Below, piece after piece: positions 2,896 through 53,360 of a DNA stretch of 53,360 nt. Numbering within the stretch: position 1 is the first letter of the stretch; each line of letters opens with the position of its first letter. Below the pieces are notes generated by a model. The model saw nothing but the letters and a program-made list of their open reading frames with translations, made no database searches and was not told the DNA's origin. Both the position numbers and the translations under genes were made by a program. Source of the stretch: Akkermansia muciniphila (GTDB lineage: Bacteria; Verrucomicrobiota; Verrucomicrobiia; Limisphaerales; UBA9464); contig CAMDGV010000030.1 of NCBI GenBank assembly GCA_945898055.1, positions 1 to 53,360 on the forward strand. The letters run 5' to 3'.

Positions 2896-5172
2896 ATGGT
2901 TTTGCCCAAATCACCCATCTCAATCACGCTTCCAAAAGATATTACCGCGAGCATCGTGGTCTTTCTCGTCGCGTTGCCACTCTGTCTCGGTGTGGCGCTG
3001 GCCTCAAATGCGCCGTTATTTTCCGGTGTGCTGGCGGGGATAGTCGGCGGCATTCTCGTGGGTTGGCTGAGTGGCTCGCACAAGAGTGTGAGTGGTCCAG
3101 CAGCGGGACTCACGGCCATCGTGGCCTCGCAGATCGGGCAGTTGGGGTCGTTTGAAACGTTTCTGCTTGCGGTGATGCTCGCCGGCGTGATCCAGATCCT
3201 CTTGGGGGTTACGCAGATGGGTTTTATCGCGGCATTTTTCCCTGGTAGTGTCATCAAGGGTCTGTTGGCGGCCATCGGTGTGATTTTGATCTTGAAGCAA
3301 CTCCCGCATGTCTTTGGTCACGATTCGGATGCGGAAGGTGAGATGAGTTTTTTCCAGCCCGATCACCGGAACACTTTCACTGAACTGTTAGACACGGTGT
3401 TCGACATCCAGCCTGGGGCAGCACTGGTGGGCCTACTTGGTATCCTGCTGCTGATCGCATGGGATCGCGTGAAGGTGCTGAAAAAGAGTCCCGTGCCCGC
3501 GGCTCTCGTCGTCGTCATCATGGGCGTCGTCATCAGTCTCATCCTGCGTCAAAGCGGCAGCCGCTGGGCCATCTCTGCGTCCCACCTCGTGCAGGTTCCG
3601 GTGGCCAAGGATCTGGGGGCGTTTATTGGCTTTTTGCAGTTCCCGAATTTCTCTCAGTTTGGAAATCCAGTGGTGTATGCCGCAGCGATCACCATCGCCA
3701 TCGTCGCTACGCTGGAGACTCTACTCAATCTGCAGGCTGTCGATAAGATGGACCCTGATCAGCACCACGCCCCACCGAACCGTGAACTCGTGGCGCAGGG
3801 CATTGGGAATGTCGTCTCAGGCCTCATCGGCGGGTTGCCGGTGACCAGCGTAGTCGTGCGTTCATCCGTCAATATCAATGCTGGTGGCAAGACGAAACTT
3901 AGCGCCATCCTGCACGGCATTTTGCTGCTCCTCTGCGTCCTGCTGATGCCAGCTTGGCTTAATGAAATTCCGCTCTCCGCGCTGGCGTCCATTTTGATCA
4001 TGACCGGCGTGAAACTAGCCAGCCCACAGCTACTCCGGCAGATGTGGAGTGAGGGAAAGACGCAGTTCCTGCCCTTCATTATCACGGTCCTCGCCATCCT
4101 CTTTACGGACCTGCTCATTGGCATCTTAATTGGTCTTGGCGTCGCTATCGCTTTTATCTTGCGCAGCAATCTGCTCCGCCCGCTGCATAAAATCATGGAG
4201 AAACACATCAGTGGTGATGTGCTACGCATCGAACTGGCGAATCAGGTCAGCTTCCTCAACCGTGCCACTCTTGAAAAGACACTGCACGAAGTCCCCCGTG
4301 GTGGCCATGTGCTGCTAGATGCACGCAGCACAGATTATATTGACCCAGACATCCTCGATCTGATTGAGGACTTCAAAAAAACCACCGCCAATGCCCATGG
4401 AGTGAAGCTCAGCCTCGCAGGTTTTAAAGACAACTACCTGCTCGCAGATCACATCCAGTATGTGGACTACTCTAGCCGTGAGGTGCAGAGCTCACTCACG
4501 CCTGCCGCTGTCCTAGAGATATTGCGCGCAGGCAACAAGCGCTTCCGCAGTGGTGAGCGCATCGAGCGTGACTACAGCCGCCAAATCGGTGCGACGGCGG
4601 GCGGGCAGTTCCCGATTGCAGTCGTGCTGGGCTGCATCGACTCGCGCGCTCCGGCAGAGGCCCTCTTCGATCTCGGTTTGGGGGACATTTTTAGCGCTCG
4701 CGTCGCGGGAAATATCGCCACGACGGAGCTGCTCGGCAGCATCGAGTATGCCTGCGCTGTGGTGGGCGCAAAGCTCGTCGTCGTGCTCGGTCACACGAGC
4801 TGCGGCGCGGTGAATGCGGCCGTCGATCTGCTCGCCGCTGCAAAAAAGGCAAGTGAGGCAACCCCGTGCGGTAACCTTGATGGACTCGTCATCGAGATCC
4901 AACAAGCGATCAATCCCGCGACTCTAAAGAAGCCTGGTCAGTGGGCTGCTGGAGAAAAGACGTCCTACACGAATGAAATCGCACGCCTCAATGTAGTGCG
5001 TACGATCAAGACGATCCGCCAGCGTAGCGCCACGCTGAATAAGCTGCTCGAGGAAGGCAAGATCGCCATCGTCGGCAGTCTCTACGATGTCGCGACGGGC
5101 GAGGTGAGCTTCTTTCAAACCGCGGATTCGAGCGTCACGAAGCTGAGCATTCCGATGGCGGCCAGCGTCTAA
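2896..5172 (+). CDS. SulP-family anion transporter fused to a beta-carbonic anhydrase
   Basis: Predicted inner-membrane bicarbonate/sulfate-type transporter carrying its own carbonic anhydrase; 758 residues from the ATG chosen here. Residues about 1-390 are the SulP membrane domain with many hydrophobic segments, including LPLCLGVALASNAPLFSGV near the start. A STAS-like cytoplasmic domain follows at about 425-500. The C-terminal third is a beta-carbonic anhydrase with the zinc and catalytic motifs GCIDSRAPAE (Cys, Asp-Arg dyad, about residue 578) and GHTSCGAV (His and Cys, about 632), all intact. SulP transporters with a C-terminal carbonic anhydrase are a known bacterial architecture; the coupling of HCO3- movement and CO2 hydration is inferred from it. 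The start could also be an in-frame ATG at 2860; neither has a strong ribosome binding site. Confidence 0.93.
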   Translation: MVLPKSPISITLPKDITASIVVFLVALPLCLGVALASNAPLFSGVLAGIVGGILVGWLSGSHKSVSGPAAGLTAIVASQIGQLGSFETFLLAVMLAGVIQILLGVTQMGFIAAFFPGSVIKGLLAAIGVILILKQLPHVFGHDSDAEGEMSFFQPDHRNTFTELLDTVFDIQPGAALVGLLGILLLIAWDRVKVLKKSPVPAALVVVIMGVVISLILRQSGSRWAISASHLVQVPVAKDLGAFIGFLQFPNFSQFGNPVVYAAAITIAIVATLETLLNLQAVDKMDPDQHHAPPNRELVAQGIGNVVSGLIGGLPVTSVVVRSSVNINAGGKTKLSAILHGILLLLCVLLMPAWLNEIPLSALASILIMTGVKLASPQLLRQMWSEGKTQFLPFIITVLAILFTDLLIGILIGLGVAIAFILRSNLLRPLHKIMEKHISGDVLRIELANQVSFLNRATLEKTLHEVPRGGHVLLDARSTDYIDPDILDLIEDFKKTTANAHGVKLSLAGFKDNYLLADHIQYVDYSSREVQSSLTPAAVLEILRAGNKRFRSGERIERDYSRQIGATAGGQFPIAVVLGCIDSRAPAEALFDLGLGDIFSARVAGNIATTELLGSIEYACAVVGAKLVVVLGHTSCGAVNAAVDLLAAAKKASEATPCGNLDGLVIEIQQAINPATLKKPGQWAAGEKTSYTNEIARLNVVRTIKTIRQRSATLNKLLEEGKIAIVGSLYDVATGEVSFFQTADSSVTKLSIPMAASV

Positions 5173-5222
5173 ATCACCGCGTGTTCTTCTTCGCCTCTCG
5201 CTTGGGCTTGATCAACTCTGGG

Positions 5223-5468
5223 TCAGGCTACCTTGTACGAATATTTAGTCGAGCCCGCCTCGTAACCGTTGAAAACTTCTTTAGCTTGGGATTTCTGTTT
5301 AACGACCCACCGGAAAAAGTTGCCATCGATTCTTTTCTGTGGCGGCTGAGGCTTAGCTCCATCGACACTGCGAACCACCCTGAGTTCGTCGGCATGGAGG
5401 TCGAGATCGAGTTGAATTTGCGGAAATCGAGGCCGCTGAGTGAGTTGAGCCTCGGTGAGAGGGGTCAC
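5223..5468 (-). CDS. Small hypothetical protein downstream of frr
   Basis: Unrecognised 81-residue reading frame with a GTG start at 5468 (MTPLTEAQLTQRPRFPQIQL). The composition is protein-like, with a basic, aromatic C-terminal half (GNFFRWVVKQKSQAKEV). The same frame is open all the way back to the stop codon of frr at 5553, so about 110 codons after that stop could be read. No ATG is available in it. It could be a small gene co-transcribed with frr or chance open frame; no family was recognised. Confidence 0.35.
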   Translation of the reverse strand: MTPLTEAQLTQRPRFPQIQLDLDLHADELRVVRSVDGAKPQPPQKRIDGNFFRWVVKQKSQAKEVFNGYEAGSTKYSYKVA

Positions 5469-5552
5469 TGCAATGAGAAGTAAAGTTTTTGCTTTCTTCT
5501 CATCCGCCTCAAAAACGAAATTCCTATCCTGAAACCAGAGAGGAACCCGAAT

Positions 5553-6116
5553 TCAAACCGTCAGGATTTCCTTCTCCTTGTAAGCGAGGTGTTGATCGAT
5601 TTTGACAATGAAACCATCGGTCAATTTTTGAACATCCGCCTCGGCAGTCTTGATGTCATCTTCGGACACGCCACCTTCGTTCTTCAGTTTCTTTAACGAC
5701 TCAATCGCTTGACGTCTTTCGTTACGGACAGCGACACGTCCTTCTTCGGACATTCGTTTGCAGATTTTGACGAATTCTTGACGACGTTCAGCGCTCAGTT
5801 CAGGAAGGACCAAACGAATAAAACGACCTTGAACAGCGGGGTTCAGGCCAAGTCCAGCGGATTGAATTCCTTTCTCAATCGCTTTCATGGTCGTTTGATC
5901 AAAGGGTTGAACCATCAACATCCGTGCTTCCGGGGCTGAAATGGTGGCGAGTTCCTTGAGTCGCATGTGGGAATCATAGGCTTCAATCATTAAGTTTTCG
6001 ATCAAAGCTGGGGAGGCTTTTCCCGTGCGAACACCGGCAAACTGCTGCAAAACGTGCTCTTCGGTTTTGAGCATTTTATCCTCGGTCTCGAAAAGGACTT
6101 CATCGATATTCATCAT
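5553..6116 (-). CDS. frr: Ribosome recycling factor
   Basis: Splits post-termination ribosomes together with EF-G. 187 residues, the family's normal size (about 185). Recognised by the full-length pattern: an N-terminal helix (DKMLKTEEHVLQQFAGVRTG) with the conserved RTGKASPALIENL, the hinge region, EGRVAVRNERRQAIESLKKL in the second helical arm, and a C-terminal helix ending EKEILTV. The ATG is doubled (MMN), so the start may be one codon later. It follows pyrH on the same strand with a 63-base gap, a common bacterial pairing. Confidence 0.97.
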   Translation of the reverse strand: MMNIDEVLFETEDKMLKTEEHVLQQFAGVRTGKASPALIENLMIEAYDSHMRLKELATISAPEARMLMVQPFDQTTMKAIEKGIQSAGLGLNPAVQGRFIRLVLPELSAERRQEFVKICKRMSEEGRVAVRNERRQAIESLKKLKNEGGVSEDDIKTAEADVQKLTDGFIVKIDQHLAYKEKEILTV

Positions 6117-46197: not shown

Positions 46198-46363
46198 CCC
46201 ATTAGAGTAAGTAGGGATTCGGGGGCGTGGGTTTTGGAGCCTGCCCAAGAGTAAACAGTTGATCGGCAGTCAACCTCGCCCCGTCGTCGGTGAGAATCAG
46301 CGACCCCTGAAATCCAAGTCGAAGAGGAGATCAAATATCGCTCAGTTTGATCCAGCTTTGACC

Positions 46364-47788
46364 TCAGGCAATGACGCCTTGGATGACGTTCCCGTGGACG
46401 TCAGTAAGTCGATAATCACGACCCCCTTGGCGAAAGGTCAATTTCTCGTGATTAATACCAGCGAGGTGCAATACGGTGGCGTGGAGGTCGTGAAAGTCGG
46501 TAATCTTGTCGACGGCCTTCATTCCAAATTCATCGGTTGCCCCATAGACTGTGCCCCCTTTGATACCGCCGCCGGCTAAGAAAACCGAAAAGCCCTCCGA
46601 GTGATGATCACGACCGTCCGGACTCGGCGCGTGGGGAGTCCGTCCGAATTCTCCAGCCCACAAAATAAGCGTACTATCCAGTAGTCCCCGCTGTTTGAGA
46701 TCTTTAATTAACCCAGCGACAGCGCGGTCGGTTTGACGAGCGTTTTTCTCATGGCCTGCTTTGAGTCCGCCGTGTTGATCCCAAGTCCCGTTTGAAAGTC
46801 CGTAGGCACAATTGACTTGGACAAAACGCACTCCGTTTTCCACCAACCGCCGAGCCCGCACCATCTGCCGGGCATAAAGTCGGGTATTGAGGTCAGGATC
46901 ATCGAGACCGTAGAGGTTTCGGGTTGATTGACTTTCGCGACTCTCGTTTAAGACATCTGGCACCAAGGACTGCATTCGAGCCGCCAATTCATAATTTCGT
47001 ACCGCGCTCTCCACAGCATTATTTCCGCCTAAGCGAGCAGCAAAGGCTTCATCTTGCTGGCGTAACACATCTAGCTTGGTTCGTTGCACCGCAATTGAAT
47101 CCGATGGCACAAGATTATCGACAGGTTGTCCGTCAGCTCGAATAAAAGTGGCTTCATGATTTGCCGGAAGAAATCCGCTACTAAAAGCCTCTAAACCGCC
47201 GACCGGGACATGGCCAAAGCTAAGGACGACATATCCCGGTAGATTTTGGTTTTCGCTCCCGAGACCATAGTTCATCCAAGAACCGAGACTCGGTCGACCG
47301 GCTGAATTGTTGCCAGTATGGAGCAAAAGAACCGCCGTTGAGTGAATGGGTAAGTCAGCCTTCATCGAGCGGATAACGGCAATGTCATCGACACAAGTGG
47401 CAATGTGCGGAAATAGGTCGCTGACGGGTGTCCCGCTTTGTCCGTGCTGCGAGAATTTCCACGGGCTTTTCACCCACTTGCGCGAAGCGTCGCCGATCCA
47501 AGGTTGCCCTTCTTTTTTGTCCAGCATCGGCTTTGGGTCAAAGGAGTCCACGTGAGAGACTCCTCCGTCCATAAAGAGGAAAATCACACTCTTGGCCTTC
47601 GCAGGAAGGTGGGGAGGCCTCGTCGAGTCGATAAACTTGGCACTCTGACCCTGAGCTAAGGCTGACCAAGCCATCCAAGCAAACCCAGTGGCACTCGATT
47701 TAAGCAAGTCTCGACGACTTAATGTCCCGGGTCGGAGGCTGGAATACGGTCGACTTTGGTGGGACCTTTGAAAAAAAGAGTGACTCAT
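46364..47788 (-). CDS. DUF1501 (sulfatase-like) Tat-exported protein
   Basis: 474 residues. Twin-arginine signal (SRRDLLKSSATGFAWMAW), then the DUF1501 body: VIFLFMDGGVSHVDSFDPKP near the start, WAGEFGRTPHAPSPDGRDHH, and HLAGINHEKLTFRQGGRDYR near the end. It is a fold relative of alkaline phosphatase/sulfatase, with unknown activity. DUF1501 genes are normally paired with a PSD1 gene as here; the starts and stops overlap by four bases (ATGA). Confidence 0.92.
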   Translation of the reverse strand: MSHSFFQRSHQSRPYSSLRPGTLSRRDLLKSSATGFAWMAWSALAQGQSAKFIDSTRPPHLPAKAKSVIFLFMDGGVSHVDSFDPKPMLDKKEGQPWIGDASRKWVKSPWKFSQHGQSGTPVSDLFPHIATCVDDIAVIRSMKADLPIHSTAVLLLHTGNNSAGRPSLGSWMNYGLGSENQNLPGYVVLSFGHVPVGGLEAFSSGFLPANHEATFIRADGQPVDNLVPSDSIAVQRTKLDVLRQQDEAFAARLGGNNAVESAVRNYELAARMQSLVPDVLNESRESQSTRNLYGLDDPDLNTRLYARQMVRARRLVENGVRFVQVNCAYGLSNGTWDQHGGLKAGHEKNARQTDRAVAGLIKDLKQRGLLDSTLILWAGEFGRTPHAPSPDGRDHHSEGFSVFLAGGGIKGGTVYGATDEFGMKAVDKITDFHDLHATVLHLAGINHEKLTFRQGGRDYRLTDVHGNVIQGVIA

Positions 47789-51099: not shown

Positions 51100-51204
51100 C
51101 GAGGAAAAGAGATTTAGGTAAGGTGAAAACGTAAATCATTTAGATGGACAAGGACGACATTTATTTAGAGGAAAGGAAATTGATGGGAATTGTTTTTTGA
51201 CATG

Positions 51205-51354
51205 GAGGGGGAAAATGACGCTTGGCGGGCAGTCGATAGGAGGCTCGAATTTGTGCGAATTTGCGCGTCAGTGCAGCGCCGGTCGAGACTGAACGTGGCG
51301 TAGTGATCAGGTTGGGAGTCCGACAAAGCGCGGCGTTCAGGGTTGGAACGACTT
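51205..51354 (-). pseudogene. Decayed J-domain (DnaJ-like) fragment
   Basis: On the minus strand the frame reads PDHYATFSLDRRCTDAQIR, which lines up residue by residue with the J-domain start (DYYxxLGxxxxAxxxxIKxAYR). A duplicated CGAATTTG (51246 and 51256, ten bases apart) then shifts the frame. If one copy is removed, it continues ASYRLPAKRHFP, the helix and HPD region with the HPD motif lost (HFP). It has no start codon or C-terminal domain and is a gene fossil. Confidence 0.7.
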
Positions 51355-51394
51355 ACTGATAGGTGGAATTTGCTTTTTGAGGCGGAGTTCAAGA
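51355..51394 (+). repeat. Direct repeat, copy at the left end of the G+C-rich islet
   Basis: A 40-base copy that matches 53155-53191 except for a three-base insertion (GTG). Core: GAATTTGCTTTTTGAGGCGG. It forms the truncated end of the GT2 pseudogene. Confidence 0.8.
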
Positions 51395-51863
51395 CCGAGT
51401 GCGCGAGTGCAGTAGTCTTCTTCTTCGTGCCAGAAGCCACCGAGGGCACGGGCCGCTGCACCGCGGACGAAGGAGCAGCACCCCCGCACCGTATCGACCG
51501 GCCCGCTGTTCGCCGTGTGCTCAGGGAGAATATCGCGCCGGGACTCGTGCACCTGGATCGTGAAGACCCAGCGGCCCGCAACACCGAGACGTGGCTGGGT
51601 GGCGAAGGCGTCACGAAAGGGGACGTCCTAGCCGGTCTTCACTTCGATGTCGTTGTCGAAAAAGGCGAGGAGGTCGTCATCGCCCATGGCGGGCAGCATG
51701 CGCTCGAAGAGTCGGCTGCGCCCGCCACTCACCCGGAGGTTGTCGGTGCGGAGTTCGACGTCGAACCGTGGATCATCGAGCGCGGCCAGAAACGCCGGCG
51801 TCTCGTCGGTCGAGACAGTGTCGACGATCGACGCACGCCAGTCCCCACCGGTATACGCTTGCA

Positions 51864-51897
51864 GCGTGTGATGCAGCGACGCGTGTGATGCAGCACG
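51864..51897 (-). repeat. 17-base tandem duplication in the GT2 pseudogene
   Basis: The 14-base unit GCGTGTGATGCAGC occurs at 51864 and again at 51881, 17 bases on. The offset is not a multiple of three, so the second copy breaks the reading frame. Confidence 0.8.
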
Positions 51898-51941
51898 TTG
51901 TGGGTGAGGGTACCGATATGCAGGACCGCCATCGTGTCCGC

Positions 51942-53045
51942 TCAGACCAACGATTCAAGGACGCGGACCATCGCGCTGGCCGAGGCGTCCCAGCTGAACT
52001 GCGTGGCCGTGGCGAGGCCGGCCACGTTGCGCTGGCGGCCATCACTCTGGCGCAGGGCGTGCACCGCGCGCAACTGCATCACGAGTTGATCGTGTTGCGC
52101 CGTACCCCAGGCGGCCCACCGTCCGGCGGTCGCGCCACCGGCGGCGGGCTCGAGCTCGTCGATGCGAATGAGTCTGGCATTCTCGGGGACGAGGAACTGC
52201 CGGTGCGCCGAATAGTCGGTCGCGATCACGTCGCGGCCCATGGCGAGCATCTCCAGCGCCTCGAGATTCCATCCTTCCGCGCGCGCCACAAACACGCCGC
52301 AGTCGGCGGCCGCCATCCAGCCGGCGACCTCGTGCTGCGATGGCAGCTCCTCGGTCAGCAGCGTGATCTTAGCGGTCATCGGCGATCGGTGGAACGGCTT
52401 GAGCAGCGCCTCCATCTGTTCGCGGGAGAGGAACGGGTTGCCGCAAACGAGCACCAGATGGACGCTGTCCTTGGGCGTAAACGCCGCCTCGAAGGCCCGC
52501 AGCAATTCGAGCTGCCCCTTGCGGGGCTCGAGCTTGCCGACCTGCAGGAAGGTGGTCTCCTTGAACGTTCGGGCCGGCGTGACCTGCTCATGGAACACGG
52601 CGCGGTCTACGCCGAGCGGCACCACGTGAATCGGGAGCGAGTTGACCCCGTTCTCCAGACAGACCTGGCGGGCCCAATCGCTGCACACCATCAGCGCATC
52701 CTGGCTGTGGAGGTTATGGAGTTCGCGCGGCGTGAAGGTGTCGAGTTCGAAGATGGTGAACCCGACCCTGGGGCCACGCCCGATGTGCTGGGCCAGGTCG
52801 AACTGCTGCGACAGGCGCACACTCGGCGCGTCGGGGCGATAGCTCCCTTGCGCCTCGAGCGCGGCGCGCAGCTTGGGATTCTCGGTGAGCGACGCGTCGA
52901 CGGGACCGATCGGGAAATAGGCGACAGGGATGCGTTGCTGCTGCAGCGCGCGCAGGAGATGGGCTCCGGCGACGCCGTAGCCCGTGCGCGAGTGCGACGA
53001 CTGGAAGGTGAACCCGTTGGTGACGATCGAGGACGGCGACGCCAT
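51942..53045 (-). CDS. GT4-family glycosyltransferase in the G+C-rich islet
   Basis: 367 residues from the ATG at 53045 (MASPSSIVTNGFTFQSSHSR); the longer frame to 53333 runs through the direct repeat. GT-B features: SRTGYGVAGAHLLRALQQQ (Gly-rich loop), PIHVVPLGVDRAVFH, FLQVGKLEPRKGQLELLRA, and the E-x7-E segment EGWNLEALEMLAMGRDVIA. Strongly G+C-rich compared with genes to the left. It is in an operon with the GT2 pseudogene (nine-base gap) and bounded by a direct repeat, which suggests transfer. Confidence 0.9.
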   Translation of the reverse strand: MASPSSIVTNGFTFQSSHSRTGYGVAGAHLLRALQQQRIPVAYFPIGPVDASLTENPKLRAALEAQGSYRPDAPSVRLSQQFDLAQHIGRGPRVGFTIFELDTFTPRELHNLHSQDALMVCSDWARQVCLENGVNSLPIHVVPLGVDRAVFHEQVTPARTFKETTFLQVGKLEPRKGQLELLRAFEAAFTPKDSVHLVLVCGNPFLSREQMEALLKPFHRSPMTAKITLLTEELPSQHEVAGWMAAADCGVFVARAEGWNLEALEMLAMGRDVIATDYSAHRQFLVPENARLIRIDELEPAAGGATAGRWAAWGTAQHDQLVMQLRAVHALRQSDGRQRNVAGLATATQFSWDASASAMVRVLESLV

Positions 53046-53154
53046 GATATGCAGACCCGCGCGGTTTCCCGGGGGGGCATGGGTGTCGGCGGCGACAGGA
53101 AAGATGTCGAGCACGGGTTCGGCGGCGGTGCCTTCTACCAGTGACGTCGGAAGG

Positions 53155-53191
53155 ACTGATAGGAATTTGCTTTTTGAGGCGGAGTTCAAGA
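53155..53191 (+). repeat. Direct repeat, copy at the right end of the G+C-rich islet
   Basis: A 37-base copy of the element at 51355-51394 in the same orientation, immediately upstream (on the minus strand) of the GT4 gene. The three-base difference keeps the frame (LELRLKKQIP in both). Confidence 0.8.
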
Positions 53192-53242
53192 GACCTGTCG
53201 AAAGGTGAAGCACCGTGCATCCCGAAGTTGTTGGTGGTTTAG

Positions 53243-53360
53243 CTGGACTATCTCTTCGGTACGGGCCACAGTCGGCGCATCGAAACTGAATTTGCATTAC
53301 AGGGGCGTCAAATTGCGCCCGGGGATTTACCATGGCTGCAGGGCTGGATTGATGCGAATC
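53243..53360 (+). CDS. Start of a DUF4338/transposon-type protein (cut by window edge)
   Basis: Open frame from after a stop at 53240 to the window edge, with no ATG, GTG or TTG. The reading EFALQGRQIAPGDLPWLQGW, followed by IDAN, resembles the N-terminus of DUF4338 proteins (also found in Druantia defence and transposon-type genes), whose pattern is G-R-x-I...L..L..WI..NP. Only 39 codons are visible, so the assignment is tentative. It may be a decayed copy or start at a non-standard codon. Confidence 0.4.
   Translation, partial: MDYLFGTGHSRRIETEFALQGRQIAPGDLPWLQGWIDAN

Follow-up and report, generated by a model that had tools for sequence, protein, structure and literature searches.

The DNA analysed here (the window) is a stretch of 53,360 nucleotides from Akkermansia muciniphila (GTDB lineage Verrucomicrobiota; Limisphaerales; UBA9464), comprising positions 1 to 53,360 of contig CAMDGV010000030.1 in assembly GCA_945898055.1. 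Close to its right end lies a 1.76-kb islet with a G+C content of 66.7% (51395-53151), compared with 52.0% in the DNA to its left (1-51354), and both ends of this islet abut a short repeat element, named E, which reads TCTTGAACTCCGCCTCAAAAAGCAAATTCCTATCAGT on the minus strand, where the glycosyltransferase genes are encoded. The two copies lie in direct orientation and share 30 identical bp (51365-51394 and 53162-53191), so that the G+C-rich segment between direct repeats described in a sequence-only reading of the window was borne out. That reading had also placed in the islet one intact glycosyltransferase family 4 (GT4) gene and one broken family 2 (GT2) gene, and open reading frames (ORFs) together with Pfam scores agree on both (Table 1).

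Table 1. Features of the window related to the islet and to element E
Feature	Coordinates	Strand	Details
Segment X (islet)	51395..53154	-	66.7% G+C, Gemmatimonadota-like; from G+C profile and homology
Right copy of E, 37 bp	53155..53191	-	0 mismatches against the core consensus; CTATCAG 3' end faces the islet
Left copy of E, 40 bp, with 3 extra bases near its 3' end	51355..51394	-	2 mismatches
Third, degenerate copy of E, same orientation	51180..51215	-	175 bp further left of the left copy
GT4 gene, intact, start codon assumed	51942..53045	-	Glyco_trans_1_4, 45.4 bits (cut-off 27)
GT2 pseudogene with frame change and in-frame stop, cut off by the left E	51395..51932	-	PF00535, 25.5 bits (cut-off 23.3)
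Worn copy of E beside the 3' end of the minus-strand gene 5553-6116	5493..5530	+	4 mismatches
Another dispersed repeat, containing the contig end	53213..53360		

The islet is of foreign origin. Its GT4 protein matched 12 loci of the species-genome collection at 55-66% identity, 11 of them in records named as, or belonging to, Gemmatimonadota and one in a record labelled Candidatus Kuenenia. On a Gemmatimonadetes contig (L088) the GT4 and GT2 genes are adjacent and collinear with the islet, and nucleotide homology extends in pieces from about 53017 to 51398, ending no more than 4 bp from the left copy of E. The GT2 frame of L088 has 590 codons, about 183 of which are matched in the islet, confirming the earlier statement that the left repeat truncates this gene. 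The islet is therefore a piece of Gemmatimonadota-like DNA whose GT2 gene was severed at E. The GT4 gene of the Kuenenia-labelled record (L081) closely resembles the Gemmatimonadota genes, through either misbinning or transfer. To the right of the islet, 53213-53360 is identical to one end of contig C63, and four other copies at 91-100% were present among the loci examined.

Copies of E were counted in the source genome, a draft of 136 contigs that is 95% complete; all genomes compared with it are also drafts, and the copies are mutually related, so p-values serve as guides only. The 30-bp form occurs 28 times at up to 3 mismatches and its reversed pattern not at all; the direct repeat at the islet is not due to chance. 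The core of E, AAAAAGCAAWTTCCTATCAR, was found in 245 copies (2 for the reversed-pattern control), and a 23-bp form in 155 copies, the latter being present in 13 of 49 other genomes of the family with no more than 7 copies each. By these counts, E is a large, dispersed, lineage-specific family. The exact 26-bp core had no match in the species-genome collection, in which records very near the window's own were possibly excluded, and nothing in the window and eight loci reached the gathering score of Rfam. Viral carriage of E was rejected, the exact 20-bp core being absent from all viral contigs scanned. Across 130 copies, the base following the CAG or CAA of E is T in 90%, the next base is partly conserved and the remainder is near random, while on the 5' side the conservation signal fades at about 38 bp. 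A variant of E occurs in a genome of another genus of the family (G014; L183 4838, 7279 and 9625; contig C127) as three like-oriented copies spaced by about 2.4 kb, with short iterations of its 3' end; short iterations of the end of E are seen at 3 of the 130 copies in the present genome.

A search for further insertions marked by the element, which the sequence-only reading had called for, located E at many other joints. Steps in G+C content across E were compared with those at E-free intergenic points of the same loci, a control adopted after random points had overstated the contrast. The median step was 0.060 at E (n = 117) and 0.035 at the 85 control points (p 6e-5), and steps above 0.10 were seen at 30% of E copies versus 7% of controls. 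Comparison over 1.05 Mb with the close relative G020, whose matched blocks are about 91-93% identical, showed four places at which synteny breaks off near E (at distances of 6, 2, 2 and 22 bp), invariably on its 3' side; at one of these borders the continuation in G020 lies on another contig of the present genome, at a break where no E was found. The other listed end points near E fall in dispersed repeats (one at 94 bp on the 5' side, one in an IS110 copy) and were set aside. Flank sharing is likewise polar: among the 108 copies with both flanks, 59 pairs (11 groups) share the upstream flank only, 10 pairs (3 groups) the downstream flank only and 3 pairs both, and the three downstream-sharing groups represent an IS110 insertion, a short tandem unit and a local duplication. 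A 0.95-kb unit found at four places has a constant 5' end, with two examples ending in E, one cut short and one starting at a contig end. We interpret E as the constant 3' terminus of the segments that are joined. The arrangement of the islet was not seen with ordinary composition in relatives, the contig of the close relative diverging within the gene that neighbours the orthologous place. G020 carries the 655-bp equivalent of window positions 46329-46983 in two contigs (L186 761-1415 and L185 4295-4949), beside non-matching DNA, as a result of either a long flanking duplication or an assembly overlap.

Copies of E also form directed arrays, which were counted at loci picked because they bear E, so that the numbers are not those of a random sample. 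Neighbouring copies within 3 kb point in the same direction in 50 pairs, diverge in 8 and converge in 2 when up to 5 mismatches are allowed (110 copies), and the corresponding numbers are 55, 12 and 4 at up to 3 mismatches (130 copies), or 45, 10 and 4 when the latter set is limited to spacings of 300-3000 bp. The median spacing of same-direction copies is 1.2 kb. Between such copies lie 43 segments of 250 bp or more, which range from 36 to 67% G+C, with a standard deviation of 0.075 compared with 0.033 for matched native windows (none of 2000 draws was as wide). Judged by ORF size, many of these segments carry one or two genes, and a Pfam family scored over its cut-off in 22 of the 34 segments scanned, the gene following the direction of E in 16 and running opposite to it in 6. 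The genes are accessory, including sulfatases, esterases, a full-length peptidase S46, MurJ, a serine hydrolase, a multihaem cytochrome, prepilin-like proteins, a methyltransferase and DUF418, some of them as fragments. Gene direction as assigned by our own gene caller is a weak signal: across the 110 copies, the next gene 3' of E has the same direction in 40 and the opposite direction in 23, no gene lies within 400 bp in 36, and E is inside an ORF in 11. In some places tandem runs are made up of E and a short repeat unit (..TGCGTGAGACCTCATCCGCC) in alternation, spaced about 178 bp apart (L094 4000-4359, L091 8716-8894, L200 and L201).

The explanation that we favour, tentatively and at just short of even chances, is that a cassette-like capture system operates across the genome and that the islet is one of its units. 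Such a unit, X-E, would consist of a captured segment X, often of one or two genes, ending 3' in the E of about 38 bp, and would join beside E or native DNA with the 3' end of E as the fixed joint; repeated events would then produce short head-to-tail arrays of the form E-X1-E-X2-E at many places. The foreign source of the islet, the family size, the like-oriented arrays, the larger G+C steps at E, the constant 3' joint at four borders with native DNA and the polarity of flank sharing are all observed; movement in the form of X-E units, and an enzyme specific for a site or an end as the maker of the joint, are inferred. Among the three origins offered by the sequence-only reading, a captured cassette is the best and is supported in part, with a donor phylum and E at many other joints added to it; a repeat-mediated insertion agrees with the polarity data, and no enzyme was identified for it. 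Several observations weigh against a capture system. About 70% of E copies have a G+C step below 0.10, the two members differ in direction in 10 of 60 neighbour pairs, and the array loci, being selected for E, are not a random sample, nor are the copies independent. E also occurs solo, in a leader, and as a head-to-tail pair; no clean empty array site was found in the 1.05 Mb of G020; a donor is proven for this islet alone; and the recombinase searches (PF00589, TIGR02249 and PF00078) tied no enzyme to E.

About 14 long copies of E extend upstream into a promoter-like stretch, with TTGACA and TATAAA separated by 16 nt, and a leader. Four congeners have the same promoter-like stretch before a CxxCH-motif gene without E, and in the present genome E sits, as judged by eye, in the apparent leader of that gene. 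The long composite also precedes unrelated genes, so that about 14 copies display the defining trait of a mobile promoter, the same promoter (here read by eye) before non-homologous genes; the short copies at the islet are without a promoter. Carrying such a promoter, the long copies could drive the gene following E, and some of them predate the split from G019, as one long copy is common to both genomes at the same gene. These copies, the solo E in the leader and the E-E tandem without cargo are what would be expected if E were a non-autonomous dispersed repeat, similar to a miniature inverted-repeat transposable element (MITE), a short interspersed nuclear element or a mobile promoter, which inserts between genes, mostly in regions that are already mosaic, the genes having arrived otherwise. 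We regard this as a serious but rather unlikely alternative to the capture of X-E units, since random insertion would not be expected to yield same-direction arrays, copies at exact native/foreign borders and always on one side, upstream-only sharing, or G+C steps above those at other intergenic points.

The fixed 3' joint with its variable upstream length, and the iterations of the end of E here and in G014, could also be attributed to breakage, if the 3' end of E were fragile or cleaved and repair captured stray DNA and recopied E on the far side by template switching, with no cassette enzyme involved. This is improbable, as no nuclease is tied to E and, judged by eye, copies of the TCTTGAAC type have a sharp 5' edge as well.

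Still less probable is a reading of E as a terminal inverted repeat belonging to ordinary DNA transposons, or as an integron site that has decayed. The 8 divergent pairs have their 3' ends outward, and one of them has TAATTA on both sides (by eye). Same-direction pairs dominate, however, and no matching duplication was seen by eye at the remaining divergent pairs; the paired inverted copies and target duplication that mark MITEs and DNA transposons are thus limited to 10 of 60 pairs (8 of them divergent) and to one pair, respectively, and the transposon-end reading is disfavoured by the orientation of the pairs. As in integrons, tandem same-direction units of gene size end in a common site. 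An attC-type hairpin was not detected in 93 copies, for which the median z was -0.15 in the sense and -0.39 in the antisense direction, compared with -0.21 for random windows (mononucleotide shuffles). Of the two R-box motifs, the 3'-terminal GTTRRRY occurs in 1 and the upstream RYYYAAC in 9 of 130 copies, and never together, and none of 8 matches to the integron integrase model TIGR02249 in this 95% complete genome exceeded the cut-off. Integron membership was rejected on these three grounds. A link to a decayed integron retains a small probability because two tyrosine-recombinase fragments near long copies of E fit the integron-integrase model at least as well as the general one (TIGR02249 and PF00589 scores of 46.4 and 37.9 bits on C87, and of 35.1 and 34.5 bits on C10); ten tyrosine-recombinase matches in the genome are over the PF00589 cut-off. 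Short C-terminal fragments of tyrosine recombinases lie directly beside long E (L017 10961-11131 and L189 about 4400-4520).

A chimeric assembly join, the last option of the sequence-only reading, could be suspected from the 136-contig draft, the foreign composition and the nearby contig end, which lies within a repeat 170 bp further right, and is highly unlikely, given that on either side the foreign DNA meets a repeat of this genome whose exact 26-bp core is in no scanned species genome and that the pattern recurs at many loci, some of them well inside contigs over 100 kb.

Other elements were found at or near E. An IS110-family element is inserted inside E at TTCCT^ATCA in L010, L016, L021 and C40 (Transposase_20, 49.6 bits; cut-off 21.3), and E therefore behaves as a repeat with a fixed insertion point for IS110; the insertions show that this element uses E, not that it makes E. 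The IS110-family copies are mostly broken (L010 1-1580, L016 about 4991-5650, the end of L021, the start of L017 and L189 2074-2869). One reverse-transcriptase frame in the genome is over the PF00078 cut-off, on C10 beside an HRDC-like frame (L187 168-1596); it is near an IS110 copy, and a long E copy follows 3 kb on. A retroelement, suggested by the fixed 3' end, variable far end and end iterations, was considered, and nothing links the reverse transcriptase to E. A role as a DNA uptake sequence was dropped because E stands at foreign borders. A near-perfect palindrome of 51 bp (TGTACAACGACGATTATT...) is dispersed in the genome (L010 2615-2665, L016 8258-8308, L025 305-355 and L011 2978-3028), and about half of it lies near L189 4372-4397, bordering the recombinase fragment on C10.

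E resembles parts of several known systems. Chromosomal integron arrays and CALINs, which are attC clusters without an integrase, share with it gene-sized segments of mixed composition and a uniform 3' site per unit, mostly in one direction; E differs in its length of about 38 bp, in the hairpin, R-box and integrase results given above, and in having arrays that are scattered and not on one platform. Mobile promoters, or promoter-carrying MITEs, reportedly described by van Passel and co-workers in papers that PMC9208149 cites, resemble the long copies in placing one promoter before unrelated genes, whereas most copies of E are short, promoterless and in directed arrays at joints of foreign and native DNA. 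One-ended transposition of the IS91/ISCR type has one fixed end and a variable far end and carries adjacent genes along, as is seen in the arrays of E; E is far shorter, and no such transposase was found, with no genome-wide search for one made. According to PMC11208160, IS621 of the IS110 family inserts in REP elements at a CT. Like E, these REP elements as presented there are short intergenic repeats in hundreds of copies that receive an IS110-family insertion at CT; unlike them, E has no hairpin signal and lies in directed arrays with cargo. Among the matches listed from the open-licence PMC literature, no title concerned such a system in this group.

It is possible, and at present more doubtful than the capture system favoured above, that these observations reflect a dispersed, non-integron cassette system, in which a putative enzyme adds X-E units at a non-hairpin end of about 38 bp and so collects genes, at least once from another phylum, in numerous small arrays, with the E variant building a similar array in G014. 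How genes of unrelated bacteria become cassettes of gene plus site has long been an unanswered question in integron research. The genome shows an integron-like product, segments with a uniform site stacked one way, on a site that fails as attC, and if the enzyme responsible for the joint were identified, the step that initially links a foreign gene to its site could be put to a direct test. For drafts of uncultured bacteria in general, the islet is a warning that sharp G+C islets with short flanking repeats need not be assembly errors.
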